Positions 11,788 through 23,397 of a DNA stretch of 64,000 nt are shown one piece after another; the first letter of the stretch is position 1, and each line of letters begins with the position of its first letter. The notes below the pieces were generated by a model. It had not been told where the DNA came from. It did no database searches and was given only the letters and a program-made list of their open reading frames with translations. This DNA comes from Trichlorobacter ammonificans. Its GTDB lineage: Bacteria; Desulfobacterota; Desulfuromonadia; Geobacterales; Pseudopelobacteraceae. The stretch is from positions 434,001-498,000 of the forward strand of contig NZ_OW150024.1 of the NCBI RefSeq assembly GCF_933509905.1, in the 5' to 3' direction. Made by a program: the position numbers and the translations under genes.

Positions 11788-12534
11788 ATGCAGATAGCAG
11801 CCCGCTGCCGCAAGTGCGGCAAGGTCATGAACAGCCAGCGTATCGACAACTACCGGGTCAAGATGACCTGCTCCTGCGGATTTTCCGACTACCGTACCGT
11901 TGCCGAGCGCAGCAAGACGGTCAATCCCTACTACCATAAGGCAAGCTTCACCCCGATGATCGACAGCAGCCGCGAGACCATGGCCCTGACCATGCAGCGG
12001 GCCAACCGCGAGCATATGGAGATCCTTTCCCTGGAAGAGATCAGCATGCTGGTCTCGTCGGACTACGATCTGCCGGAGGTGTTGAGTTCGGTGGCGGAAA
12101 AGCTGGCGCGGCAGCTGAAAGCCAGCGTCTGTAACATCTATCTGGCGGAGGGGGACAGCCTGGTGCTGACCGCCACCTATGGTTTCGACCCCGGCCATAT
12201 CGGCAAGATCAGGATCAAGATCGGTGAGGGGATCACCGGCAACGTGGCCAAGACCATGCAGCCGCTCAATCTCTCCAACGCCAGCCAGGACCCCCGCTAC
12301 AAGGTATTTGCCGAGCTGAACGAAGAGAAGTACAACTCCATGCTTTCCTTCCCGATTGCCGACAAGCAGGATGTCTACGGGGTCATCAACGTCCAGACCA
12401 CCTCCATGCGCACCTTCCCCGACGACGAGATATTCTTCGTCTCCATTATCGCCAATCTGATCCTTTCCGCCATCAAGCTCCGCCGCACCGCCGCCCGGCG
12501 TGCCGACGCCAGGAGCGGAGTGGCCGCCGCTTGA
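11788..12534 (+). CDS. GAF domain protein with N-terminal zinc-ribbon-like segment
   Basis: 248 residues. Residues 7-35 hold Cys pairs CRKCGK and CSCGF, a likely zinc ribbon that would also fit PilZ-like or RNA-polymerase-type fingers. Residues about 75-235 are a GAF domain (ISMLVSSDYDLPEVLSSVAE, then IRIKIGEGITGNVAKT and DVYGVINVQT), a fold that binds small ligands or dimerises. No output domain is attached, so it may pass its signal to the receiver or kinase encoded downstream (inference). Start ATG with AAGGAG upstream. The stop codon lies inside a 17-bp tandem duplication (12520-12563). Confidence 0.82.
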   Translation: MQIAARCRKCGKVMNSQRIDNYRVKMTCSCGFSDYRTVAERSKTVNPYYHKASFTPMIDSSRETMALTMQRANREHMEILSLEEISMLVSSDYDLPEVLSSVAEKLARQLKASVCNIYLAEGDSLVLTATYGFDPGHIGKIRIKIGEGITGNVAKTMQPLNLSNASQDPRYKVFAELNEEKYNSMLSFPIADKQDVYGVINVQTTSMRTFPDDEIFFVSIIANLILSAIKLRRTAARRADARSGVAAA

Positions 12535-12563
12535 CAGTGGCCGCCGCTTGACAGTGGCCGCCG
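12520..12563. repeat. 17-bp tandem duplication spanning a stop codon and a -35 box
   Basis: GTGGCCGCCGCTTGACA occurs at 12520-12536 and again at 12537-12553, followed by a partial third copy, GTGGCCGCCGC (12554-12564). The unit holds TTGACA. The first copy supplies the stop codon of the GAF gene (TGA 12532-12534), the second the -35 box of the next promoter. Confidence 0.9.
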
Positions 12564-12575
12564 CCGTGCTAGACT
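12548..12575 (+). promoter_or_regulatory. Candidate sigma-70 promoter for the receiver-UspA-kinase genes
   Basis: TTGACA (12548-12553), 16-bp spacer, TAGACT (12570-12575), 34 bp before the ATG at 12609. The -35 box belongs to the second copy of the 17-bp duplication. Confidence 0.6.
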
Positions 12576-12608
12576 TTCTCCAACTGCACACGGAGGAGAG
12601 TCACGGGA

Positions 12609-13022
12609 ATGACGGCGGAACGACTGAAGCGCGTACTGGTGGTGGATGACGAGGAAAATACCCGCCTCGCCCTGACACGGCTACTTTCCCGCGAGGGATT
12701 TCAGGTGCTTACCGCCGCCAATGGCAACGAGGCGCTTTGCCAGTTGCGCAGCCAGCCGGCTGAACTGATCATTACCGACCTGCATATGCCCGAGATGAAC
12801 GGGCTGGCCTTTCTGCGGGAACTGAACCGCGAACACCCCATGAGCAACGTGATCATGATCACCGCCTTCGGTGAGGTGGAATCCTATCTGGAAGCCCTCA
12901 ACCTGGGAGTGTTCGAGTATATCAACAAGCCGATCCGGCTGGAGGAGCTGAAGCGGGTCATGAACAAGATATTCCCCGACCTGCATTCTGAACACGGTCT
13001 TGAAAGGAGCACCTCGTCATGA
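12609..13022 (+). CDS. Single-domain response regulator (receiver only)
   Basis: 137 residues, one CheY-like receiver with all key residues: the acidic pair in VVDDEENTR, phospho-acceptor Asp57 in ITDLHMPEMNG, Thr in IMITAFG, and Lys in INKPIRLEE. There is no DNA-binding or enzymatic output, so it probably acts by protein contact. GGAGGAG lies upstream of the ATG. Its stop overlaps the UspA start (ATGA at 13019). The kinase two genes downstream is the obvious candidate partner. Confidence 0.9.
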   Translation: MTAERLKRVLVVDDEENTRLALTRLLSREGFQVLTAANGNEALCQLRSQPAELIITDLHMPEMNGLAFLRELNREHPMSNVIMITAFGEVESYLEALNLGVFEYINKPIRLEELKRVMNKIFPDLHSEHGLERSTSS

Positions 13023-13468
13023 AGCGATTCACCACCATTCTGCTGGCCACGGACTTCTCCGACACCTCGCACCAGGCGGCGGAGTACGCCCTTGACCTGG
13101 CGCGCAGCTTCGAAGCCCGGCTGCTGGTACTGCACGTCATCAACGAGCCGGTGGATCTGCGGGGGTTTTACGTACCCCATATTTCCTTCGAACAGCTGGA
13201 AAAAGAGATTGAAACCGGCGCGGCCCGGATGCTGGAAACGTTCTGTACGGAGCAGTTCGGCGACTATGGCGCCGTTGAAACCGCCCTTGCCACCGGCGTC
13301 CCCTTTGAAGAGATCCTGCGCATGGCCGAGGAACGCTCCGCCGACCTGATCGTCATCGGTACCCATGGGCGCACCGGGCTTGACCACCTCATTTTCGGCA
13401 GCACCGCGGAGCGGGTGGTCCGTTCCGCTTCCTGCCCGGTTATGACCGTCCGGGTGGCGGAAAGCTGA
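13019..13468 (+). CDS. Universal stress protein, UspA family
   Basis: 149 residues, one Usp domain. It contains ILLATDFSDTSHQAAEYALDLA at the start and the ATP-binding signature GTHGRTGLDHLIFGSTAERV near residues 118-137 (G-x2-G-x9-G-S/T), which places it in the nucleotide-binding branch. The start overlaps the receiver gene stop by 4 nt (ATGA), so translation is coupled. Confidence 0.93.
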   Translation: MKRFTTILLATDFSDTSHQAAEYALDLARSFEARLLVLHVINEPVDLRGFYVPHISFEQLEKEIETGAARMLETFCTEQFGDYGAVETALATGVPFEEILRMAEERSADLIVIGTHGRTGLDHLIFGSTAERVVRSASCPVMTVRVAES

Positions 13469-13471
13469 ATC

Positions 13472-14677
13472 GTGGCGGCGTTGTCAGGGGGAGGCCGGCC
13501 TGAGCAGGTGGAGGCTGCCACGACCATTGTGGTGATCGATGATGAACCGGCAATCTGTCATTTGGTATCCCTGTTGCTTGCAGAGCGGGGCTACCGGGTG
13601 ACCACCGCCGCTACGGCGGCCGAAGGATTGGCTGCCGCCCGTACGTACCAGCCGGACTTGGTGCTGATGGACTACCTGCTGCCGGACCTGGACGGCATTG
13701 CTCTGTTGCAGGAGTTGAAGGCAACGGTACCCGATTGCGCGGTGATCATCTGCACCGGCAGGGGAAGCGAGGAGATCGCCGTCCAGCTGATCAAGAACGG
13801 TGCCGCCGAATATCTGCTCAAGCCGTTCAATCCCCGGACCTTTGGCGACCGGATCGATGCGGTCAGGCGCCTGCGCTCCATCGAGCTGGCCAACCGGGCG
13901 CTGCAGCAGGAGCGGGAGCGTCTGTTGCTTGAAATCGAGTCCTGGAACCGCGAGCTGCAGTCCCGGGTCCGGGAGAAATCGGAAGCGCTGCAACGGGCCC
14001 AGGCCGAGATCGCCCAGACCGAAAAGCTGGCCGCGCTGGGTTACCTGGCGGCAGGCATGGCCCACGAAATTCGCAATCCCCTCAACTCCATCGCCCTTTT
14101 TACCCAATTGCTGACTCAGGGAGCCAGCGAAGCGGAAACGCAGGAATTCCTGGACAAGATCCTCAAGGAAGTGGACCGGATCGACGGCATTATCCGTCGC
14201 CTGGTGGAAGCGGCCAACCGGCGGCGCTCGGCTGCCCAGGTGGTGCTGGTGGATCAGGTGGTCCGCGAGGCGCTGGCCATTTTCAAACCCCAGGTGGAGG
14301 CCCGGCAGATCACCGTGGACTTCCGGTGTCCCACGCCCTTGCCCAGCATCAAGGCCGATCCCACCGAGCTGGAGCAGATATTCACCAACCTGTTTCAGAA
14401 CGCCCTGGAAGAGATGGGGGATGGGGGGCGCCTGGCCATCGGACTGAGCGGTTCCGGAAGCGGCATTGAGATCCGGGTCGCCGACAGCGGCGGCGGCATC
14501 CGTCCCGAGGACCGGGAGGCGATCTTCAAACCCTTCTACTCCACCAAAAGCCGCGGTACCGGCATCGGCCTGCCGGTGGCGCAGCGAATTGCCCGGCTCT
14601 ATCGCGGCGATCTTTCGGTCGAACACTCCTCCCCCGCCGGCACCACCTTTCTCGTGACCCTGCCGGTGACCTGCTGA
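13472..14677 (+). CDS. Hybrid protein: N-terminal receiver plus sensor histidine kinase
   Basis: 401 residues from GTG 13472, only 3 bp after uspA; no strong ribosome site is visible, so it may rely on coupling. Residues about 20-130 are a receiver with DDEP, Asp67 (LMDYLLPDLDG) and KPFNPRT; a coiled coil covers about 140-185; HisKA carries His198 (AGMAHEIRNPLNSI); the HATPase domain has the N box (NLFQNALEEM), G1 (VADSGGGI) and GTGIGLPVA. The order receiver-then-kinase is opposite to classical hybrids: such proteins are usually switched by an upstream kinase. There is no transmembrane segment, so it is cytoplasmic. Confidence 0.9.
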   Translation: MAALSGGGRPEQVEAATTIVVIDDEPAICHLVSLLLAERGYRVTTAATAAEGLAAARTYQPDLVLMDYLLPDLDGIALLQELKATVPDCAVIICTGRGSEEIAVQLIKNGAAEYLLKPFNPRTFGDRIDAVRRLRSIELANRALQQERERLLLEIESWNRELQSRVREKSEALQRAQAEIAQTEKLAALGYLAAGMAHEIRNPLNSIALFTQLLTQGASEAETQEFLDKILKEVDRIDGIIRRLVEAANRRRSAAQVVLVDQVVREALAIFKPQVEARQITVDFRCPTPLPSIKADPTELEQIFTNLFQNALEEMGDGGRLAIGLSGSGSGIEIRVADSGGGIRPEDREAIFKPFYSTKSRGTGIGLPVAQRIARLYRGDLSVEHSSPAGTTFLVTLPVTC

Positions 14678-14690
14678 CTCCGGATAGCTC

Positions 14691-16280
14691 ATGCGTTTTC
14701 TGCTTAGAAATCTGACCCTGACGCCGGGGCAGGACGAGGCCGGCCTTGGTGCTCTGGCTGCCCGTACCATTGGCCTTCAGCCCGCCGACCTGCATGATTT
14801 TCACATTGTTCGCAAGGGGGTGGATGCCCGCAAAAAGCCGCGGGTGCTGCTGGTCTATACGGTGACCTTCGCACTCGATCCCGTCCTCGCCTCCCGGCTG
14901 CCCGCCGCCTCCGTTGCCGGCCTGGAGCCCGCTCCTCCGGCGGAAACCCTGCTCCCGCCACCGCGAGCCGTCGCCGCCCCCGCCCCATCCCCCATCATCA
15001 TCGTCGGCATGGGACCGGCCGGCTTGTTCTGCGCCCTGCGCCTTGCCCGGCACGGATTGACCGCAACGGTACTCGAGCGGGGCAAGCCGGTGGAGGAACG
15101 GGTCGGGGATGTTGCCCGTTTCTGGCGTGACGGGCTGCTGGACAGGGAAAGCAATGTTCAGTTCGGCGAAGGGGGGGCGGGCACCTTTTCCGACGGCAAG
15201 TTGACCTGCCGCCTGCGCGACCCCAACAGCGCCTGGGTACTGGAAGAACTGGTCCGCTTCGGCGCGCCGCCGGAAATCCGCTACCTGGCAAAGCCCCATG
15301 TCGGCACCGACCGGCTGCGCAGCGTGGTGGCGGCAGCGCGCCGCCATCTGCAACAGCTCGGCTTCGATCTGCGCTTTTCGACCCGTCTCGACGGCATTGC
15401 TGCGGCGAAAGGAAGTGTGTCGGCCGCCCGACTGGCCGGGGGCGCGGAACTGGCCTGCCGGCACCTGGTACTGGCCATCGGCCACAGTGCTCGTGATACC
15501 TACACCATGTTGGCCCGCTGCGGTCTGCCGATGGAGCGGAAGCCCTTTGCCATCGGTCTGCGGGTCGAGCATCCCCAGGGGGTGATCGACCGCATTCAGT
15601 ATGGTCGCCCCCATCCGGCCCTGCCCCGGGCCGACTACGCCCTGACCTGGAACAATACCGCCAGCGGCAGAAGCTGCTACTCCTTTTGCATGTGTCCCGG
15701 CGGCCTGGTGGTGGCCGGTTCGTCGGAGGAGGGAATGGTGGTAACCAACGGCATGAGCAATCTGGGCAGGGATTCGGGGCTGGCCAACAGCGCCCTGGTG
15801 GTGAACGTGCGTCCGGAGGATTTCGGGGATACCGATCCGCTGGCGGGGGTGCGCTTCCAGCAGACCTGGGAGCAGCGGGCCTTTACGGCAGGGGGGGGCT
15901 CCTACCGGGCGCCCGCCGCCAACCTGTTGACCTTTCTGGGCAGCGGACGGGGGCGGTATGCCTCCAGCTATCGTCCCGGCACGGTGGAGGCCGATTTGAC
16001 CACGGTACTCCCCCCCTATGTGACCGAAACGCTGCGTGAAGGGATTCCGGCGTTTGGGCGGAAAATGAAGGGATTCGTTACCGCCGAGGCGACGCTTACC
16101 GGGGTGGAAACCCGCACCTCGGCGCCGTTGCGTATTCTGCGCGATGAAAGCTGCCAATCCCTCGCGCTGGAGGGGCTCTATCCGGCGGGAGAAGGGGCCG
16201 GGTATGCCGGCGGGATCATGAGTGCGGCCCTGGACGGAGTACGGATCGCCGATCTGATCGCGTTGCGGGTCCTGTCGTAA
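14691..16280 (+). CDS. FAD-dependent oxidoreductase (uncharacterised dehydrogenase, COG2509-like)
   Basis: 529 residues. After an N-terminal domain of about 95 residues (RNLTLTPGQDEAGLGALAAR) comes the dinucleotide fold IIVGMGPAGLFCALRLARHG with Glu of LERG at the end of beta-2. FGEGGAGTFSDGKLTCRL and the C-terminal GEGAGYAGGIMSAALDGVRIA (FAD contact) also match this family. The physiological substrate is unknown; the family is widespread in anaerobes and plastids. ATG 14691 lies 13 bp after the kinase gene, possibly co-transcribed. Confidence 0.87.
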   Translation: MRFLLRNLTLTPGQDEAGLGALAARTIGLQPADLHDFHIVRKGVDARKKPRVLLVYTVTFALDPVLASRLPAASVAGLEPAPPAETLLPPPRAVAAPAPSPIIIVGMGPAGLFCALRLARHGLTATVLERGKPVEERVGDVARFWRDGLLDRESNVQFGEGGAGTFSDGKLTCRLRDPNSAWVLEELVRFGAPPEIRYLAKPHVGTDRLRSVVAAARRHLQQLGFDLRFSTRLDGIAAAKGSVSAARLAGGAELACRHLVLAIGHSARDTYTMLARCGLPMERKPFAIGLRVEHPQGVIDRIQYGRPHPALPRADYALTWNNTASGRSCYSFCMCPGGLVVAGSSEEGMVVTNGMSNLGRDSGLANSALVVNVRPEDFGDTDPLAGVRFQQTWEQRAFTAGGGSYRAPAANLLTFLGSGRGRYASSYRPGTVEADLTTVLPPYVTETLREGIPAFGRKMKGFVTAEATLTGVETRTSAPLRILRDESCQSLALEGLYPAGEGAGYAGGIMSAALDGVRIADLIALRVLS

Positions 16281-16557
16281 CACAGCTCAGAGGCTCCGAA
16301 AGCCGCTAAGGGCAGGGGTATGCAACTGCGTGGATAGCTAGCGGAGCATACTGTCCCTGGCCTCCCTGCCCGCGAGAATCTGCTGGGGCGTCACCGACCT
16401 GCTCAGCTAGTCCTTCCCGAGTCAGCCCCGTCAATTTTGCCAACTTATGCTTCAAGTCAACCACTGTTGTCCGGCAAACTTCCCTGTGTGTCAAATCTTG
16501 CACAATTTGTTGCGCTTCGCTAGAATCAACTCCGTTATTCCACTTACGGAGAAGAGC
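16281..16557. other. Intergenic region of 277 bp, lower GC, holding the promoter of the next gene
   Basis: No start-to-stop reading frame with a ribosome site and no clear hairpin terminator was found for the FAD gene. The right half (about 16430-16557) is clearly poorer in GC than its surroundings. Apart from the promoter at 16498-16526, nothing could be assigned. Confidence 0.5.
16498..16526 (+). promoter_or_regulatory. Sigma-70 promoter of the hydrogenase-like regulator
   Basis: TTGCAC (16498-16503), 17-bp spacer, TAGAAT (16521-16526), 31 bp before the ATG at 16558. Confidence 0.7.
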
Positions 16558-18870
16558 ATGCAACCGATCGTCACCTACAAGGAACGTTGCCGCACCTGCT
16601 ATTCCTGTGTCCGCACCTGCCCGGTCAAGGCGATCAAGGTGGACGGCGGCTATGCCGAGATCATCGACGAGCGCTGCATCGGTTGCGGCAACTGTCTGAA
16701 CTGCCAGCAGAAGGCCAAGGTGGTGGTGGACCGGATGGTCAAGGCCCAGGAACTGCTGACCTCCGGCGACCCGGTGGTGGCGGTGCTGGGCTGCTCCTTC
16801 CCCGCCTTCTTCCACACCTGTACCCCCGGCCAACTGGTCTCGGGGCTCAAAAGCCTCGGTTTCCGTGAAGTGCATGAGGGGGCCCACGGCGCCCGGCTGA
16901 TCGCTCCGCTTTACCGGGAAGCGATCGCCGTTACCGACCGCCCCCTGATCGCCTCCCACTGCCCCGCCGTGGTGGACCTGGTGGAACGGCACTACCCCAA
17001 GCTGCTGCCCAACCTGCTGCCGGCCGTCTCCCCCATGGTGGCCATGGGGCGCTTCATCAAGGAAACCCTGGGGACCGACACCAAGGTGGTCTACCTGAGC
17101 ACCTGCATTGCCGCCAAGTTCGAGATTCAGTCGCCGGAACTGCAGTCGGCCGTTGATGTGGTGATGACCTACGGCGAGATCGATCTCTTCTTCCGTCGCC
17201 GGGGCATCAATCCGGCAACCCTGGCCGAATCGGGCTTTGACGGCATCGAGCCGGCCCACGGCCGGATGTTCACCCTGCACGGCGGTCCGTTCCGCGCCAT
17301 GGAGATTCCCACCGACTTCCTGGACACGGAGACCGTCACCGCCGAGGGGGAAACCCACGTGCTGGATACGGTGCGGGATCTGGTGGCCGGCAGGATCACT
17401 CCCCGCTACGTGGACCTGCGCTTCTGCGACGGCGGCTGCATCGACGGCCCGGCCAAGAACCGGGACCTGACCCACCTCTACAAACGGAACCTGATCATCA
17501 AGTACAACAGCAGCGTGATTCCCTACCGTACCGCGCCGCACTACGCCAGTGCCCCGCCGCCGGCCAACCTGCGGCGCAGCTTCAGCGACAAGTCGAAAAA
17601 ACTGCCGTCGCCGAAACCGGAGGATATTCGCAGGATTCTGCACAGCACCGCCAAGTTCAGTCAGAGCGACGAGCTGAACTGCCGGGCCTGCGGCTACGCC
17701 ACCTGCCGTGAGCATGCGGTGGCGGTGTTCCAGCGCTTTGCCGATACCGGCATGTGCCTCCCCTACAACCTGCGCAAGATGGAGGAGGACCGCGGCATCC
17801 TGCTGCAGAAATACGAGTTGATCTCCCGCGAGTTGAGCAAGCAGCTCGGCGAGGAGATGATCATCGGCGACGACCGTAAAGTGGCCCAGGTGGCGGAACT
17901 GATCCGCCAGGTGGCCCCCACCCCCACCACAGTGCTGATCCAGGGGGAAACCGGCACCGGCAAGGAGCTGACCGCCCGGGCCATCCACCGGCTCAGCAGC
18001 CGGGCCGACAAGCCGCTGGTGACGGTGAACTGTACCACGCTCACCGATTCGCTGCTGGAAAGCGAGCTGTTCGGCCACAAGAAGGGGGCTTTTACCGGGG
18101 CCATCGCCGATCGCAAGGGGCTCTTCGAGGCGGCCAACGGCGGCACCATTTTTCTGGATGAGATCGGCGACATCACCCCCAAGCTGCAGGCGGAGCTGCT
18201 GCGGCTGCTGGACGTCGGCGAAGTCCGGCCGGTAGGCGGCACCACGGTGAAAAAGGTGGATGTCCGCCTGATCGCCGCCACCAACAAAAATCTTGAGCAG
18301 GGGGTTCGGGAGGGCTGGTTCCGCGATGACCTCTTCTACCGCCTCAACGTCTTCACCATCCATTTGCCGCCACTGCGGGAGCGGATGGACTCGATACCGG
18401 TGCTGGTGCAGCATTTCCTGGAAAAGGCCAGCAAAAAGCTGAACAAGCGCCTCACCGGCATGGAAGAGCGGGCCATAACCGCCATGCGCCACTACCCCTG
18501 GCCCGGCAATATCCGGGAGATGCAGAACATCATCGAACGGGCCGCGGTACTGTCCCACGATGGGGTGGTGCGCCTTGAAAATCTTCCCTCGGTCTTCCGG
18601 GAAACCCACGACGCCCATGCCGGCAGCCAGCCCGGCAGCCGGCGCGCTTCCTTCAAGGCCGAGAAGGAAACTCGCCTGAGCCCCCTTGAGCGCAATCTGA
18701 TTCTGCGCTACCTGCAGGAGGCGGGGGGCAACGTCTCCAAGGCGGCCCGCCTGGCCGACCTGCCCCGCAGGAGCTTTTACCGTCTGCTGGAAAAGCACGG
18801 CATCAGTGTTCAGCGAGACCGCCGCCTGACGAGTGCCGCCAGCGAACCTGGCGCTGGTGTTATAAAGTAG
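16558..18870 (+). CDS. Sigma-54 enhancer-binding regulator with N-terminal ferredoxin/[FeFe]-hydrogenase-like sensor
   Basis: 770 residues from ATG 16558 (CGGAGAAGAG upstream). Order: ferredoxin-like domain with Cys11-14-17-21 and Cys40-43-46-49; [FeFe]-hydrogenase large-subunit-like domain (about 70-330) keeping the H-cluster cysteine positions as HCPAVV (Cys135), STCIAAKFE (Cys183) and FCDGGCIDG (Cys290, Cys294); a further four-Cys iron-sulphur motif (Cys375, 378, 383, 400); AAA+ sigma-54-interaction domain with GETGTGKE (463-470) and GAFTGA (510-515, the sigma-54 contact loop); a Fis-type helix-turn-helix at the end (GNVSKAARLADLPRRSFYRLL). It resembles the sensory (HydS/HsfB) hydrogenase-like proteins, but with AAA+ output. 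Predicted to switch sigma-54 promoters in response to H2, CO or redox state (inference). A sigma-54 promoter lies 125 bp downstream. Confidence 0.92.
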   Translation: MQPIVTYKERCRTCYSCVRTCPVKAIKVDGGYAEIIDERCIGCGNCLNCQQKAKVVVDRMVKAQELLTSGDPVVAVLGCSFPAFFHTCTPGQLVSGLKSLGFREVHEGAHGARLIAPLYREAIAVTDRPLIASHCPAVVDLVERHYPKLLPNLLPAVSPMVAMGRFIKETLGTDTKVVYLSTCIAAKFEIQSPELQSAVDVVMTYGEIDLFFRRRGINPATLAESGFDGIEPAHGRMFTLHGGPFRAMEIPTDFLDTETVTAEGETHVLDTVRDLVAGRITPRYVDLRFCDGGCIDGPAKNRDLTHLYKRNLIIKYNSSVIPYRTAPHYASAPPPANLRRSFSDKSKKLPSPKPEDIRRILHSTAKFSQSDELNCRACGYATCREHAVAVFQRFADTGMCLPYNLRKMEEDRGILLQKYELISRELSKQLGEEMIIGDDRKVAQVAELIRQVAPTPTTVLIQGETGTGKELTARAIHRLSSRADKPLVTVNCTTLTDSLLESELFGHKKGAFTGAIADRKGLFEAANGGTIFLDEIGDITPKLQAELLRLLDVGEVRPVGGTTVKKVDVRLIAATNKNLEQGVREGWFRDDLFYRLNVFTIHLPPLRERMDSIPVLVQHFLEKASKKLNKRLTGMEERAITAMRHYPWPGNIREMQNIIERAAVLSHDGVVRLENLPSVFRETHDAHAGSQPGSRRASFKAEKETRLSPLERNLILRYLQEAGGNVSKAARLADLPRRSFYRLLEKHGISVQRDRRLTSAASEPGAGVIK

Positions 18871-18922
18871 TGTATACTTTTGTCCGAATTGTGTCGATAC
18901 TGGCACAGTTTTTGGTTGCTAC

Positions 18923-18947
18923 AATCAGGACGCATTTCGTCCTGATT
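18923..18947. promoter_or_regulatory. Perfect 10-bp palindrome, probable operator or enhancer site
   Basis: AATCAGGACG (18923-18932), 5-bp spacer CATTT, CGTCCTGATT (18938-18947). No T tract follows, so it is unlikely to be a terminator. Its centre is about 85 bp upstream of the expected start of the sigma-54 promoter, the usual place for an enhancer-binding-protein site; it also touches the -35 of a possible sigma-70 promoter. Confidence 0.55.
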
Positions 18948-18974
18948 GGGTAAGTTGTTGATTTAAGTGATAAT
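18946..18974 (+). promoter_or_regulatory. Possible sigma-70 promoter overlapping the palindrome
   Basis: TTGGGT (18946-18951), 17-bp spacer, GATAAT (18969-18974). The -35 box is poor. The spacer holds TAAGTTGTTGATTT, also found in front of ppdK at 36719-36732. Confidence 0.3.
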
Positions 18975-18993
18975 GTCAATGGTCGGCTGGTTT

Positions 18994-19009
18994 TGGCACG
19001 TTTCTGGCT
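18994..19009 (+). promoter_or_regulatory. Sigma-54 promoter for the ribbon-helix-helix gene
   Basis: TGGCACG (18994-19000), 4 bp, TGGCT (19005-19009). GG and GC are exactly 10 bp apart as sigma-54 requires; the -24 element is perfect and the -12 element has one mismatch to TTGCT. The start codon at 19085 lies about 65 bp past the predicted transcription start. Confidence 0.65.
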
Positions 19010-19084
19010 AAGTATACGGCATTCAATTGAACGCAAAAAAAGCGAAACCACCAATATCGACACTGATCAAAGGAGACACAGACC

Positions 19085-19267
19085 ATGGGAAGAATGAGAG
19101 AAAACCCCCGCTACAATGTTATTTCGATGCGCGTCAGCGATTCCGAGCGCGAACAACTGGAATACCTGATGCGCCGCACCCACAAGTCGGTTTCGGACAT
19201 CATGCGCGAAGCGATGCTGAACCTGACCATGCAGCTTGATCACCAGGAGGTCCGCCGGGCCGCCTGA
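19085..19267 (+). CDS. Small ribbon-helix-helix (CopG/MetJ-like) DNA-binding protein
   Basis: 60 residues. The pattern RYNVISMRVSDSEREQLEYLM, followed by THKSVSDIMREAMLNL, fits a ribbon (residues about 8-15) and two helices, as in CopG/Arc-type repressors or antitoxins. No toxin gene is adjacent. AAAGGAG (19069-19075) precedes the ATG. It is the only gene between the sigma-54 promoter at 18994 and a bidirectional terminator, so it appears to be the direct target of that promoter. It could regulate itself or other H2/redox genes (inference). Confidence 0.72.
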   Translation: MGRMRENPRYNVISMRVSDSEREQLEYLMRRTHKSVSDIMREAMLNLTMQLDHQEVRRAA

Positions 19268-19293
19268 GCCGCCCCGGGAGGGATACGCCACAC

Positions 19294-19331
19294 AAAAAAG
19301 CGGCGACGGAATCTTCCGTCGCCGCTTTTTT
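19294..19331. terminator. Bidirectional Rho-independent terminator between the RHH gene and rng
   Basis: AAAAAAGCGGCGACGGA (19294-19310), loop ATCT, TCCGTCGCCGCTTTTTT (19315-19331): a perfect 17-bp stem with T runs on both strands. It serves the plus-strand small gene and the minus-strand rng. Confidence 0.95.
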
Positions 19332-19352
19332 ACCGTCACTGCCGCAGTCGGA

Positions 19353-20864
19353 TCAACTGATCACGATCTCGAACTGTTCCTGATGGAACCCCGGCTTGGC
19401 CCGCACCGTTACCCGTTTCTTGTATTTTTTCTCCAGCTCCTCAAGCCCCCGCCGCTCTTCGTCGTAGAGCAGGTCCGCCACCTGGGGGTTCACCGTCAGG
19501 AGCACCTTGGTCCCCCGGATATCCAGCATCTCGCGGCGCACTTCCCGGAAGATCTCGTGGCAGACCGTGGTCTTGGACTTGACGTAGCCGCGCCCCTCGC
19601 AGTAGGGGCAGGGTTCGCACATCATCCTGCCGATGCTTTCCCGCACCCGCTTGCGGGTCATCTCCACCAGCCCCAGTTCCGAAATTTTCAGGATGTTCGA
19701 CTTGGACTTGTCCCCCTTCAGGGCATCCTCCAGGGCGGCGTAGACCTTGTCCCGGTTGGCCTCCTTCTCCATGTCGATGAAATCGATGATGATAATGCCG
19801 CCGATGTTGCGCAGCCGGAGCTGATAGGCGATCTCCTTCACCGCCTCCAGGTTGGTCTTGAGGATGGTGTCCTCCAGGTTGTGTTTGCCCACGAAGCGGC
19901 CGGTGTTGACGTCAATGGCGGTCAACGCCTCGGTCTGCTCGATGATGATGTAGCCGCCGGACTTGAGCCAGACCTTGCGCCCCAGGGCCCGGCTGATCTC
20001 CACTTCCAGGCCGTAGTAGTCGAAGATCGGCTCTTCCTCGTCGTACAGCTCCACCGAGGATTTCATCTTGGGCATGAAGGTGGACATGAACTGCACGATC
20101 CGGTCGTGGTCCGGCTTGGAGTCCACCACGATCCGGGTGACGTCGTCGGTGACGATATCCCGCACCACCTTCTGCACCACATCCAGGTCGGCATGGATCA
20201 GGGACGGCACCGATGCCTTTTCCTTCTTGCGCACGATCTCGGCCCAGACCTTGGCCAGGTACTGGATGTCGGCCTTCATGTCGTCTTCGGTCTTGCCCTC
20301 GGCGGCGGTCCGTACGATGAAGCCGCACCCCGGCTGCCGCAACCGGTCCACGATCTCCCGCAGCCGTTCCCGCTCTGCCTCATCCTCGATCCGGCGGGAA
20401 ATCCCCACGTGGTCCACCGTGGGCATGTAGACCACGTGACGGCCGGGCAGAGAAATGTGGGAGGTGATCCGGGCTCCCTTGGTGCCGATCGGCTCCTTGG
20501 AGACCTGCACCAGCAGCTCCTGCCCCTCCTGGAGCAGCTCCTCAATGGGGTGCAGGACGCGGTAATCAGGGGCTGCCCCCTCTTCGTCCTGCTCCTCCTT
20601 CTTGCCGTCGTCCAGCAGGTTCTCGTACTCCTCGATGGCGTCGAACACGTCGGCCACGTACAGAAAGGCCGCCTTTTCCAGGCCGATATCCACAAAGGCG
20701 GCCTGCATGCCGGGCAGCACCCGCACCACCTTGCCCTTGTAGATGTTGCCGACGATTCCCTTCTCCCGGGTTCGCTCGATGTACAGCTCGGCGATGGTCC
20801 CCTTTTCGATCAGGGCCAGCCGCGTCTCCTGGGCCGTGACGTTGATAACCAGTTCTGATGCCAT
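19353..20864 (-). CDS. rng: Ribonuclease G/E family endoribonuclease
   Basis: 503 residues, RNase G length without an RNase E-type degradosome tail. It begins with an S1 domain (IVGNIYKGKVVRVLPGMQAAFVDIG) and contains IIEQTEALTAIDVNTGRFVG and IGGIIIIDFIDM with the metal-binding aspartates, then the zinc-link CPYCEGRG. It processes 16S rRNA 5' ends and single-stranded AU-rich RNA in relatives. An acidic insert (about 84-97, DDGKKEEQDEEG) splits the S1 domain, as in some other delta-type RNase G proteins. The radical SAM/DUF2344 gene lies 40 bp upstream on the same strand, a common pairing; rplU and rpmA, often next, are absent here. Confidence 0.93.
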   Translation of the reverse strand: MASELVINVTAQETRLALIEKGTIAELYIERTREKGIVGNIYKGKVVRVLPGMQAAFVDIGLEKAAFLYVADVFDAIEEYENLLDDGKKEEQDEEGAAPDYRVLHPIEELLQEGQELLVQVSKEPIGTKGARITSHISLPGRHVVYMPTVDHVGISRRIEDEAERERLREIVDRLRQPGCGFIVRTAAEGKTEDDMKADIQYLAKVWAEIVRKKEKASVPSLIHADLDVVQKVVRDIVTDDVTRIVVDSKPDHDRIVQFMSTFMPKMKSSVELYDEEEPIFDYYGLEVEISRALGRKVWLKSGGYIIIEQTEALTAIDVNTGRFVGKHNLEDTILKTNLEAVKEIAYQLRLRNIGGIIIIDFIDMEKEANRDKVYAALEDALKGDKSKSNILKISELGLVEMTRKRVRESIGRMMCEPCPYCEGRGYVKSKTTVCHEIFREVRREMLDIRGTKVLLTVNPQVADLLYDEERRGLEELEKKYKKRVTVRAKPGFHQEQFEIVIS

Positions 20865-20904: not shown

Positions 20905-23397
20905 TCACAGTGGCGATGACGCCGAAAACAGTACGTCCAGCTTTGCCACGGGAAGCTGGCGCAGCATGGCTGCCGGCAGCCCCGTCACCGCCGCAGCCAC
21001 CTCGTAGGGTTTGCCCCGGCCGATGACCATCTCCAGGGCCGTGCCATCCGCCACAAGGGATCTGGTCTCGTGACGCAGATCGATCACCTGCTGCTGTCCC
21101 TTTTTGTCGCGCACCAGCTCCCAGGACGACTGTGCCATAAATTGCACACACTGCTCGCGAAGGGTTTCCGGCTCCAGGTCCGGCAGCACCAGCCGGTAGC
21201 GGGTTGCCGCGATCAGGGTGGACAGGGATGGGGTTTTCAGCGCCGGCGAGCAGGCATCAAGCACCTGCATCCCCTCCGGCAGCACCCGGTTCAGGCGGTC
21301 CCGGCATTCGTCCGCACCCATCCGGTCCACGAACAGGTCCAGATATTCGGCCCACGACTCTACTCCCACCGAGGTGGCGGTTGCAAAGGAAAATCGCGGA
21401 TGGGGGTGAAAACCCTGGGTATGGAGCACCGGGATACCGGCCCGGTAGACGGCACGGGTGAACAAATTGATCAGCTCAAGGTGGCTGAGGAAGCGCACCC
21501 TGCCGGTCTTGGAGAAACGGATACGGATGCGACGCGGGTCTGGTTCCGACACCGGCCGTTGCTGCGGTTGCTCCGGCCGGCCGCAGGCGGGGACGGTCCG
21601 GTTCCGTACGGTTGAGAAATCGCAGACGCCGCAACCGCTACAGTGGCCGAACCGGCAATCCGGGGTGGCGGCCTGCTCCAGAGCCCGCTGCAGTTCGGCT
21701 TTCAGGAAGGCCGTGGTTACACCGCTGTCCAGGTGATCCCAGGGGAGCAGTTCGTCCTGCCGCCGCTGCCGCAGGTACCAGTCCGGCTCGACACCGCACT
21801 CTGCAAACGCCTGCAGCCAGCGCTCCAGCGAGAAGTGTTCCCGCCAGCCGTCGAAGCGGCAGCCCAGGTCCACGGCCCGCTCCAGTACCGCGGCCAGACG
21901 CCGGTCGCCCCGGGCAAAGACCCCCTCCATGAAGGAAAGCTCCGCCTCCTGGTATTTGTAGTGCAACTTGCGCCGCTTCAGCTCCTCCCGGAGAAACCGT
22001 TGCCGCTCGCGGGTTTCCTCCAGTGACAGTTGCCGCTCCCACTGGAAGGGGGTATGGGGCTTGGGCACAAAGGTGGAGACCGCCACGTTCACCTCGCCAT
22101 GGCCGCCGGCCCGGCGGGCCTGGGCCTTGACCTGGCGGGCAAGGTCGGCAATGGCGGCAAGGTCCTCCCGCGTCTCGGTGGGCAGCCCCATCATGAAGTA
22201 GAGCTTGATGGCCCGCCAGCCGGCGCCGTAGACGTTGTAGGCCCCCTCCAGCAGGGCTTCTTCGCTGATCCCCTTGTTGATCACCTGCCGCAGCCGCTCG
22301 GTGGCCGCTTCGGGGGCCAGGGTAAAGCCGGTCTTGCGTACCCGTCGGATCTCCTCGATCAGCTCCGGCGTCAGGGTGCCGACCCGTAGCGACGGCAGTG
22401 ACACCGCCACCCGGCTGTCGGCGTACTCCGCCATCAGTTCCCGCAGCAGCGGTTCGATACAGGAGTAATCGCCGCTGGAAAGAGAGAGCAGGGATATCTC
22501 GTCGTAGCCGGTGGCCTCCAGAGAGGCGCGGATCAGGTCGCGAATCCGCTCGGGAGAACGCTCCCGCAGGGGACGGTACAGATAGCCGGCCTGGCAGAAC
22601 CGGCACCCCCTGGTGCAGCCCCGGGCGATCTCCAGGGCGACCCGGTCGTGCACCGTCTTCAGGAACGGGATCACCGGGCTGTCGGGAAAGGGGGCCGTCT
22701 CCAGGTTGGCGAGAAAACGGCGGCGTACCGGGCCGTAGCCCGGCCTGAGCGGTGTTATGGCGGCCACCGTTCCATCGTGGTGATAGGAAATATTGAAAAA
22801 GGAAGGGACGTAGACCCCCTCGATAGCGGCAAGCCGCTCCAGCAGCTCCCGGCGGTCCGGGGTGACGGCACGTTTCCACTCCCGCACCGTGGCGGCGATT
22901 TCAAGCACCGCTTCCTCGCCGTCCCCCAGCAGAAAGGCATCGAAAAAGGGAGCCAGCGGTTCAGGGTTGTAGGCGCCGGGCCCTCCGCCAAGGATCAGCG
23001 GCTGCTCAGGGCCCCGCCGGTCGGCGCGCCGGGGGATGCCGGCCTGATCGAGCATGGCAAGGACGTTGGTACAGGAGAGCTCGTACTGCAGGGTAAAGCC
23101 GAGGATGTCGGTGTCGGCGAGGGGGGTGGCGGTCTCAAGGGTGGCTAGCGGAATACCCCGTTCCGCCATCTGGCCGGCCAAGTCCGGCCAGGGGGCAAAG
23201 ACCCGTTCGGCGGCGACCCCCTCCTGCTGGTTGAGGATATGGTAGAGGATACGCAGCCCCAGGTGGCTCATCCCCACTTCGTAGACGTCGGGGAAGGCCA
23301 ACGCGATGCGCAGCTCCGCGGACGGCTTGACGATACACCCCATTTCGGCCCCCATGTAGCGGGCCGGCTTTTCGACACTGAACAGATCCGGTTCCAT
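20905..23397 (-). CDS. Radical SAM protein fused to DUF2344 (TIGR03960/TIGR03936 type)
   Basis: 830 residues from ATG at 23397 (AAGGAGTG upstream); a longer frame to 23499 crosses the ompA terminator and is not credible. N-terminal cobalamin-binding-like domain (FPDVYEVGMSHLGLRILYHILN), then radical SAM with Cys261-x3-Cys265-x2-Cys268 (GCTRGCRFC), then a Cys-rich joint (CRFGHCSGCGVCDF) and DUF2344 from about 615 (IRIRFSKTGRVRFLSHLELI). The two halves are separate proteins in some bacteria. The function is unknown; consistent linkage to rng suggests RNA modification or ribosome-related work (inference from family context). Confidence 0.9.
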   Translation of the reverse strand: MEPDLFSVEKPARYMGAEMGCIVKPSAELRIALAFPDVYEVGMSHLGLRILYHILNQQEGVAAERVFAPWPDLAGQMAERGIPLATLETATPLADTDILGFTLQYELSCTNVLAMLDQAGIPRRADRRGPEQPLILGGGPGAYNPEPLAPFFDAFLLGDGEEAVLEIAATVREWKRAVTPDRRELLERLAAIEGVYVPSFFNISYHHDGTVAAITPLRPGYGPVRRRFLANLETAPFPDSPVIPFLKTVHDRVALEIARGCTRGCRFCQAGYLYRPLRERSPERIRDLIRASLEATGYDEISLLSLSSGDYSCIEPLLRELMAEYADSRVAVSLPSLRVGTLTPELIEEIRRVRKTGFTLAPEAATERLRQVINKGISEEALLEGAYNVYGAGWRAIKLYFMMGLPTETREDLAAIADLARQVKAQARRAGGHGEVNVAVSTFVPKPHTPFQWERQLSLEETRERQRFLREELKRRKLHYKYQEAELSFMEGVFARGDRRLAAVLERAVDLGCRFDGWREHFSLERWLQAFAECGVEPDWYLRQRRQDELLPWDHLDSGVTTAFLKAELQRALEQAATPDCRFGHCSGCGVCDFSTVRNRTVPACGRPEQPQQRPVSEPDPRRIRIRFSKTGRVRFLSHLELINLFTRAVYRAGIPVLHTQGFHPHPRFSFATATSVGVESWAEYLDLFVDRMGADECRDRLNRVLPEGMQVLDACSPALKTPSLSTLIAATRYRLVLPDLEPETLREQCVQFMAQSSWELVRDKKGQQQVIDLRHETRSLVADGTALEMVIGRGKPYEVAAAVTGLPAAMLRQLPVAKLDVLFSASSPL

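Follow-up and report, generated by a model that had tools for sequence, protein, structure and literature searches.

The DNA analysed here is a 64,000-nucleotide stretch (the window) of the Trichlorobacter ammonificans genome, which is one contig of 3,058,983 bases. In it the gene of an iron-sulfur enhancer-binding protein is followed by the gene of a 60-residue ribbon-helix-helix (RHH) protein, and from a comparison of the locus across the order Geobacterales we consider it quite probable that the first protein is an autorepressed activator with, in essence, a single sigma-54 target, and that this target is an RHH regulator typical of the order. In the mechanism that we propose the regulator, an iron-sulfur protein resembling [FeFe]-hydrogenases, would bind palindromes of the form TGTGYC-N6-GRCACA through its Fis-type helix-turn-helix (HTH). 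Bound at 18890-18907, about 100 bp upstream, it would activate the sigma-54 promoter of the RHH gene, with an IHF-like site lying between the two, and bound at 16487-16504 it would cover the -35 box of its own sigma-70-type promoter and repress itself. The 60-residue RHH protein would be essentially the sole sigma-54 target of the regulator and would probably control its own gene through the GTATAC repeats around its promoter; the genes that it targets would together be the output of the switch. The regulator would most probably sense not H2 but the redox or oxidative state of its [4Fe-4S] clusters.

The locus and its conserved elements

The features of the locus, in window coordinates, are the following.

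16487-16504, + strand: copy of the activator site, TGTGTCAAATCTTGCACA, one mismatch, upstream of the regulator start; predicted autorepression site
16498-16526, + strand: predicted sigma-70-type promoter of the regulator; -35 box TTGCAC (16498-16503) inside the site, 17-nt spacer, -10 box TAGAAT (16521-16526)
16558-18870, + strand: regulator gene, 770 aa
Between the regulator and RHH genes: gap of 214 bp
18870-18882, + strand: distal element GTGTATACTTTTG, which includes GTATAC; either an RHH operator or a portion of another activator-like site
18890-18907, + strand: predicted upstream activator site TGTGTCGATACTGGCACA, TGTGYC-N6-GRCACA
18922-18948: palindrome CAATCAGGACG-N5-CGTCCTGATTG, 11-bp arms, this genome only; might form an RNA hairpin 3' of the regulator gene
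18951-18963, + strand: IHF-like site TAAGTTGTTGATT, between activator site and promoter, adjoining the palindrome
18994-19009, + strand: sigma-54 promoter TGGCACGTTTCTGGCT (-24/-12), GG-N10-GC
19012-19017: proximal GTATAC, just 3' of the -12 box; candidate RHH operator
19085-19267, + strand: RHH gene, 60 aa; orthologues in 72/76 family genomes (63 bits or higher)
19294-19331: inverted repeat (18 bp, perfect, A/T ends) separating the RHH gene from the convergent rng; likely bidirectional terminator
19353-20864, - strand: rng, RNase E/G

The preliminary description had placed the RHH gene alone in front of a bidirectional terminator, and this arrangement was found again: the 60-aa open reading frame is followed by the terminator-like inverted repeat, and no second gene was recognised between the two in the window. 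The terminator scan did not list the 19294-19331 repeat. Upstream of the regulator gene (11788-16280) the window encodes a GAF protein, a response regulator, a universal stress protein, a hybrid histidine kinase and an FAD-dependent protein. No Pfam match was obtained with a translated sequence from upstream of the regulator, and no Rfam match at the gathering threshold over 18700-19400.

For the comparison within the family the regulator was searched in 76 genomes and the stretches downstream of it were then fetched. Among the 74 loci given, the regulator stop could be paired with a downstream RHH start in 60, which are the family gaps referred to below. The 14 unpaired loci were five regulator paralogues, eight loci with no RHH gene in the fetched stretch, some of them at contig ends, and one locus (G040) in which the regulator end was not recognised. 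The sample from the other families of the order consisted of 40 RHH promoters, all parsed, taken from 61 genomes with an RHH match; in a separate survey of order loci three loci remained unparsed. Shuffle controls, for the family gaps as for the regulator loci described below, preserved single-base composition only, and this applies to all comparisons with shuffled sequences.

The well-spaced sigma-54 promoter proposed earlier for the RHH gene was borne out by its conservation. GG-N10-GC, present at 18994-19009, is kept in 60/60 family gaps, at 51-78 nt before the RHH start in 59 of them as picked (G019 aside), and all 40 fetched promoters of the other families have a -24/-12 site of the TGGCA type. 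The sequence resembles TTGGCACGGTTTTTGCT, the consensus that a study of G. sulfurreducens gives for RpoN (PMC2725144). It must be noted that a loose -24/-12 pattern with 2 mismatches occurs 30 times in the window, with 34 expected, that is, not above chance, so the weight of this promoter comes from its conservation before the same gene.

The second conserved element of the gap is the predicted activator site. TGTGYC-N6-GRCACA was found with at most two mismatches in 58 of the 60 family gaps (16 exact, 35 with one and 7 with two mismatches), and in 56 of the gaps it lies 101-105 nt upstream of the TGG of the -24 box (shuffles: mean 0.2 genomes, maximum 2). Named genomes from other families have it as well, for example Geobacter argillaceus and Geomobilimonas luticola. 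Among the promoters of the other families whose genome has a regulator orthologue, it stands 111-117 nt before the TGG in 29/31, with at most two mismatches in all 31 and none or one in 30, whereas among the nine promoters from genomes without an orthologue only one has 0-1 mismatch, the other eight having 2-5 (Mann-Whitney p 2.7e-6, uncorrected for relatedness). Relatedness inflates these counts, and the nine promoters without regulator may mean only three or four independent losses. Within a single genus (g14) the site has no mismatch in the two genomes with the regulator (G224, G227) and four in the genome without it (G226). Five genomes without an orthologue (G268, G269, G270 and G275 of g28, and G230) nevertheless have the site at the same place with 1-2 mismatches, thus another activator may use it there.

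The two elements also accompany RHH genes that lie away from the regulator. In five genomes the RHH gene is displaced, about 10-12 kb from the regulator on the same contig (G057, G042) or on another contig (G044, G043, G030), and in all of them the promoter is present and the site, placed at -102 relative to the TGG, deviates by one base at most. Where the gap between the genes measures 470-810 bp (G008, G033, G045, G055) the site still has at most two mismatches. In G041 and G048 the genes are on different contigs and the regulator stands at a contig end, which makes an assembly break the likelier cause. Judged by these comparisons, a conserved palindromic site and a -24/-12 promoter appear to be tied to the regulator. 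The earlier suggestion of a complete, self-contained circuit can be kept in part: sensor-activator, site, sigma-54 promoter and RHH gene do form one conserved unit, but the circuit is less self-contained than proposed, because its output is a DNA-binding protein and some RHH genes are displaced as described. Paralogous RHH genes in G073 and G062 have no such elements in the 330 bases upstream; by eye they sit behind a tatA-like gene, and their promoter may precede that gene. In L080 (G045) the distal element and the activator site occur twice, at about 50-90 and 492-530 counted from the regulator stop, and these copies, about 440 bp apart with the second before the RHH promoter, look like a duplication.

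The same motif recurs in front of the regulator gene. In a sample of 40 loci of the regulator, made up of the best 30 from the family and 10 on named contigs, it was found with at most two mismatches before the gene in 37, compared with a mean of 0.06 in single-base shuffles. In 29 of the 40 it occurs without mismatch, with TTGCAC as a possible -35 box, and a -10-like hexamer (at least 4 of 6 bases) follows the -35 box by 16-19 nt in 26 loci, none being recognisable in the other 14. In the window a promoter scan match at 16499-16526 (+) overlaps the predicted promoter. Since the site covers the -35 box of the regulator's promoter, we propose that the regulator represses itself, a prediction made from the sequence of these promoters.

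How many other promoters the regulator might serve was approached with a strict composite pattern (the site, 76-106 bases, and a -24/-12 element with TGGCAY), run on 141 genomes of the order. It matched 47 times in 47 genomes, never more than once in each, the reversed-pattern control giving 0, and all 47 matches end 51-77 bases before an RHH match on the same contig and strand. A narrower run on the family gave 27 matches in 27 of 76 genomes, of which 26 recur among the 47; the remaining one (G062) also precedes its RHH gene. The strict pattern misses 94 of the 141 genomes, hence weaker extra targets are possible. In the genome of the window TGTGTCGATACTGGCACA is the sole exact copy among the 100 places listed (about the first 1.19 Mb of 3.06 Mb), where six others have one mismatch, and at two mismatches the whole genome has 255 sites vs 221 in the control, so from these searches neither a regulon nor genome-wide uniqueness of the site can be claimed. 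A third near copy of the activator site in the window, TGTGCCATAAATTGCACA, lies at 21131-21148 inside the gene upstream of rng, and no promoter was recognised around it by eye; of the seven sites with at most one mismatch among the places listed (about the first 1.19 Mb), this locus has three inside 5 kb.

The IHF-like site that lies between the activator site and the promoter was scored against the IHF consensus YAA-N4-YTGATW. The motif is exact in 9/60 family gaps, always at -42/-43 from the TGG (shuffles: mean 0.5, maximum 3) and never on the opposite strand; with one mismatch it is found in 25/60 gaps (shuffles: mean 9.6, maximum 18; opposite strand 12). Participation of IHF in the activation would fit this position.

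The palindrome and the GTATAC repeats

The preliminary description had singled out another palindrome, AATCAGGACG, as the binding site of the regulator. The perfect 10-bp palindrome does exist, at 18923-18947, and its arms even reach 11 bp (18922-18932 and 18938-18948, separated by N5). It is single both in the window and in the 3.06-Mb genome with up to three mismatches allowed. The window contains five distinct perfect inverted repeats with arms of at least 10 bp and loops of 3-8, which makes the palindrome unusual for one 214-bp gap, yet unremarkable in itself. It was not found in any of the 59 other family gaps, where the next best match has 7 mismatches in 20 positions, nor specifically in the gap of the nearest relative, where the regulator shares 88% identity with that of the window (the regulator of Trichlorobacter thiogenes is 82% identical). 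Any perfect inverted repeat with arms of at least 9 between activator site and promoter occurs in 2/60 family gaps. Across the 60 gaps the palindrome is therefore unconserved where the regulator is present, an outcome that had been named in advance as speaking against its role, and the idea that it is the activator site is not supported. The possible sigma-70 promoter thought to overlap it was not recovered either: the scan of 16300-19400 gave two sigma-70-type sites, 16499-16526 (+) and 18897-18869 (-), neither of them over the palindrome.

What then could the palindrome and the GTATAC repeats be? That the palindrome (18922-18948) is nonetheless bound by the regulator might be argued from its perfect 11-bp arms, its position between regulator and promoter and its single copy in the genome, but it is absent from the 59 other gaps although column identity in the HTH averages 0.84 (40 sequences), and a different palindrome is conserved at a nearly fixed distance; we regard this reading as extremely improbable. 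If the palindrome has a use, the likeliest is as an RNA hairpin peculiar to this species at the regulator transcript's 3' end, where it would provide end protection or reduce read-through into the RHH gene. It begins 52 nt past the end of the regulator's stop codon and would form a stable RNA stem, the 115-nt fold having a z-score of -3.5 (a second stem in this stretch is formed by the conserved site). However, the stem lacks a U-run and so is not a canonical intrinsic terminator, the terminator scan found none there (the same scan missed the 19294-19331 repeat, too), and the hairpin is unconserved and has no Rfam match. Arguments on the two sides seem to us evenly balanced. GTATAC, by comparison, is the commonest 6-bp palindrome of the region, occurring in 59/60 family gaps in 102 copies vs 4.4 in single-base shuffles; it is distal in 57, proximal in 42 and at both places in 40 of the 60. 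We think that it is probably the RHH operator, through which the RHH protein would regulate its own gene. A genome-wide search with GTGTATACTTTTG alone was uninformative (13 matches vs 21 in the control). The repeats could instead be part of a second, tandem activator site: in four g20 genomes (L271, L272, L274, L275) the distal position, 20 bp upstream, is occupied by another activator-like site, which has 1-2 mismatches, and in the other families GTATAC is present in 19/31 promoters with the regulator vs 2/9 without. Nevertheless, in 42/60 family gaps another copy of GTATAC stands close to the -12 box or directly behind it, a position ill-suited to an activator, and the repeat is retained in G215 and G226, which both lack the regulator. 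We consider the tandem site possible but rather doubtful, and prefer the RHH operator.

The iron-sulfur sensor and the ribbon-helix-helix protein

The regulator contains two Fer4-type clusters, an Fe_hyd_lg_C domain (73-298) and an FeS motif Cx2Cx4Cx16C (C375-C400), followed by a sigma-54 AAA+ domain (435-602), an AAA lid and HTH_8 (708-746). With a Sigma54_activat AAA+ domain (PF00158, 229.5 bits), the GAFTGA loop present in the translation and a C-terminal HTH (PF02954, 32.2 bits) it is a sigma-54 enhancer-binding protein. Its best NCBIfam match, NifA (TIGR01817), reached 363.4 bits and did not pass the cut-off of 528.85, and the 25 of 51 NCBIfam matches listed are all below their cut-offs. 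A second paralogue of the regulator, about 57-67% identical to that of the window, occurs in five genomes (G014, G011, G035, G045, G046; L069-L072, L082), where the place of the RHH gene is taken by an open reading frame of about 285-332 residues that runs convergently on the opposite strand.

Compared with solved structures, the H-domain matches [FeFe] hydrogenases (HydA2 of 7qv7, E 1.1e-17). In 40/40 sequences the H-cluster cysteines C135, C183, C290 and C294 are kept, likewise the Cx2Cx4Cx16C motif, and the eight Fer4 cysteines are kept in 39 or 40. Immediately ahead of the first H-cluster cysteine, 39 of the 40 sequences have H and one has Q, instead of C. In [FeFe] hydrogenases the second-sphere lysine at C+3 of the MPCxxK motif has a role. 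HydA2 has this Lys; all 40 sequences have A (31) or G (9) at this position. The structure model of the sensor, with a mean pLDDT of 54, was too poor for use. As regards maturation of an H-cluster, neither HydF nor HydG scored over its cut-off in the genome of the window. Over the order HydF passed in 14/141 genomes, namely in 3 of the 119 with the regulator (G056, G233, G267) and in 11 of the 22 others, while HydG passed in 3/76 family genomes, two of them without the regulator. The 119 are genomes with regulator orthologues, those with only a roughly 30%-identical match being left out (G268-G275, G229, G059); G074 was counted among the 22 in spite of a contig that starts with the regulator C-terminus, and many of the genomes are incomplete drafts. 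The rarity of HydF in regulator-bearing genomes makes a finished H-cluster unlikely in most regulators.

These data bear on the nature of the signal, and the conservation of the RHH protein bears on the nature of the output. A genuine sensor of H2 in which the H-cluster is complete, on the model of the putative sensory HydS hydrogenases, would agree with the domain order, which in the excerpted text of PMC8163306 is also that of the group C/D putative sensory hydrogenases with Cx2Cx4Cx16C, with the H-cluster cysteines in 40/40 sequences and with HydF in three regulator-bearing genomes. The contrast of 3/119 with 11/22 for HydF, the scarcity of HydG in the family and the loss of the C+3 Lys in every sequence argue against it, and we think H2 sensing improbable. 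Sensing through the redox state of the [4Fe-4S] clusters, or of O2 or NO, would be our choice. The wider proposal, in which an [FeFe]-hydrogenase scaffold without the diiron subcluster serves as a pure Fe-S redox (or O2/NO) sensor, and the autorepressed single-target sigma-54 activator built on it sets a conserved, order-wide RHH switch in Geobacterales, is put forward tentatively, as slightly less than an even prospect. For the RHH protein a function as antitoxin of a toxin-antitoxin pair could be read from a weak RelB-family match (NF046040) and from weak fold matches that include RHH antitoxins, none with E below 0.3. The RelB score, at 23 bits, is under the curated cut-off of 50, no partner gene was recognised in the window between RHH gene and terminator, and orthologues are present in 72/76 family and 61/65 other genomes of the order; an antitoxin is therefore very unlikely in our opinion, and a regulator of the RHH class remains preferred.

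Distant relatives of the sensor part (about 30% identity, about 600 aa) were noticed within about 5 kb of HydF in four genomes (G056:C79, G059:C16, G269:C38, G270:C78). Standing beside maturation genes, these are possibly genuine sensory hydrogenases.

The RHH protein just passes the gathering score of Pfam RHH_1 (PF01402, the RHH_1/CopG family) with 21.6 vs 20.5 bits, and differs from that family by its N-terminus, MGRMRENPRYNVISMR, which is strongly conserved in the rows aligned. Helices are predicted at 19-32 and 36-59. By sequence no solved relative was found with E up to 0.1, and the fold search gave no match below E 0.3, so that it supports the RHH fold only weakly. The four family genomes without an RHH orthologue (G007, G038, G058, G059) also lack the sensor part of the regulator or have a distant match only. 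The counts for the rest of the order, 61/65, come from a profile search; outside the order the best match in the genomes of the class searched had an E of 8e-16. A second RHH protein (L201, G000:C1:1759316-1759465, - strand), 64% identical over 47 residues to the first, is encoded in the same genome, and no -24/-12 site was recognised by eye in the sequence inspected there.

Relation to known systems

NifA, NorR and PspF are one-component enhancer-binding proteins, and the NifA site is TGT-N10-ACA. The regulator resembles this type in combining an AAA+ domain with a Fis HTH, in its palindromic sites and in the IHF-like site before the promoter. It differs from NifA in the spacing of the site (TGT-N12-ACA vs TGT-N10-ACA), in the sensor and in having a small regulator as output.

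It is also instructive to compare the regulator with proteins having a similar sensor. According to the excerpted text of PMC6615313 enhancer-binding proteins with Fer4, Fe_hyd_lg_C and FeS domains are listed among the sigma-54 activators of Clostridiales, thus the protein is of a known kind; the sensor domain names are alike. That excerpt gives domains only, while the site, promoter, target and autoregulation are what we infer here, in another phylum. As described in the excerpt of PMC8163306, the group C/D putative sensory [FeFe] hydrogenases TmHydS and TamHydS share with the regulator two N-terminal [4Fe-4S] motifs, the H-domain, the C-terminal Cx2Cx4Cx16C and the lack of the proton-transfer Cys299. 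Unlike these, the regulator is fused directly to a sigma-54 AAA+ domain and an HTH, mostly occurs without HydF and has its C+3 Lys replaced. The main text of the G. sulfurreducens RpoN study (PMC2725144) contains none of the terms ribbon, CopG or Arc family. A literature search, made without preprints and most subscription papers, led to no paper that we recognised as describing the regulator-RHH pair, nor to one with the site, the autorepression signature, the RHH target or the scarcity of HydF.

The Geobacterales, an order of anaerobes in much of which the promoter layout is conserved, include metal-reducing and electroactive bacteria. For this order the present work would provide a defined and testable circuit, with one sensor, two sites of one motif and one strict sigma-54 target, which is itself a regulator. 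It would also provide a natural set of hydrogenase-like sensors in genomes without HydF above the cut-off, and such a set may allow a direct test of whether 'sensory hydrogenases' must sense H2.
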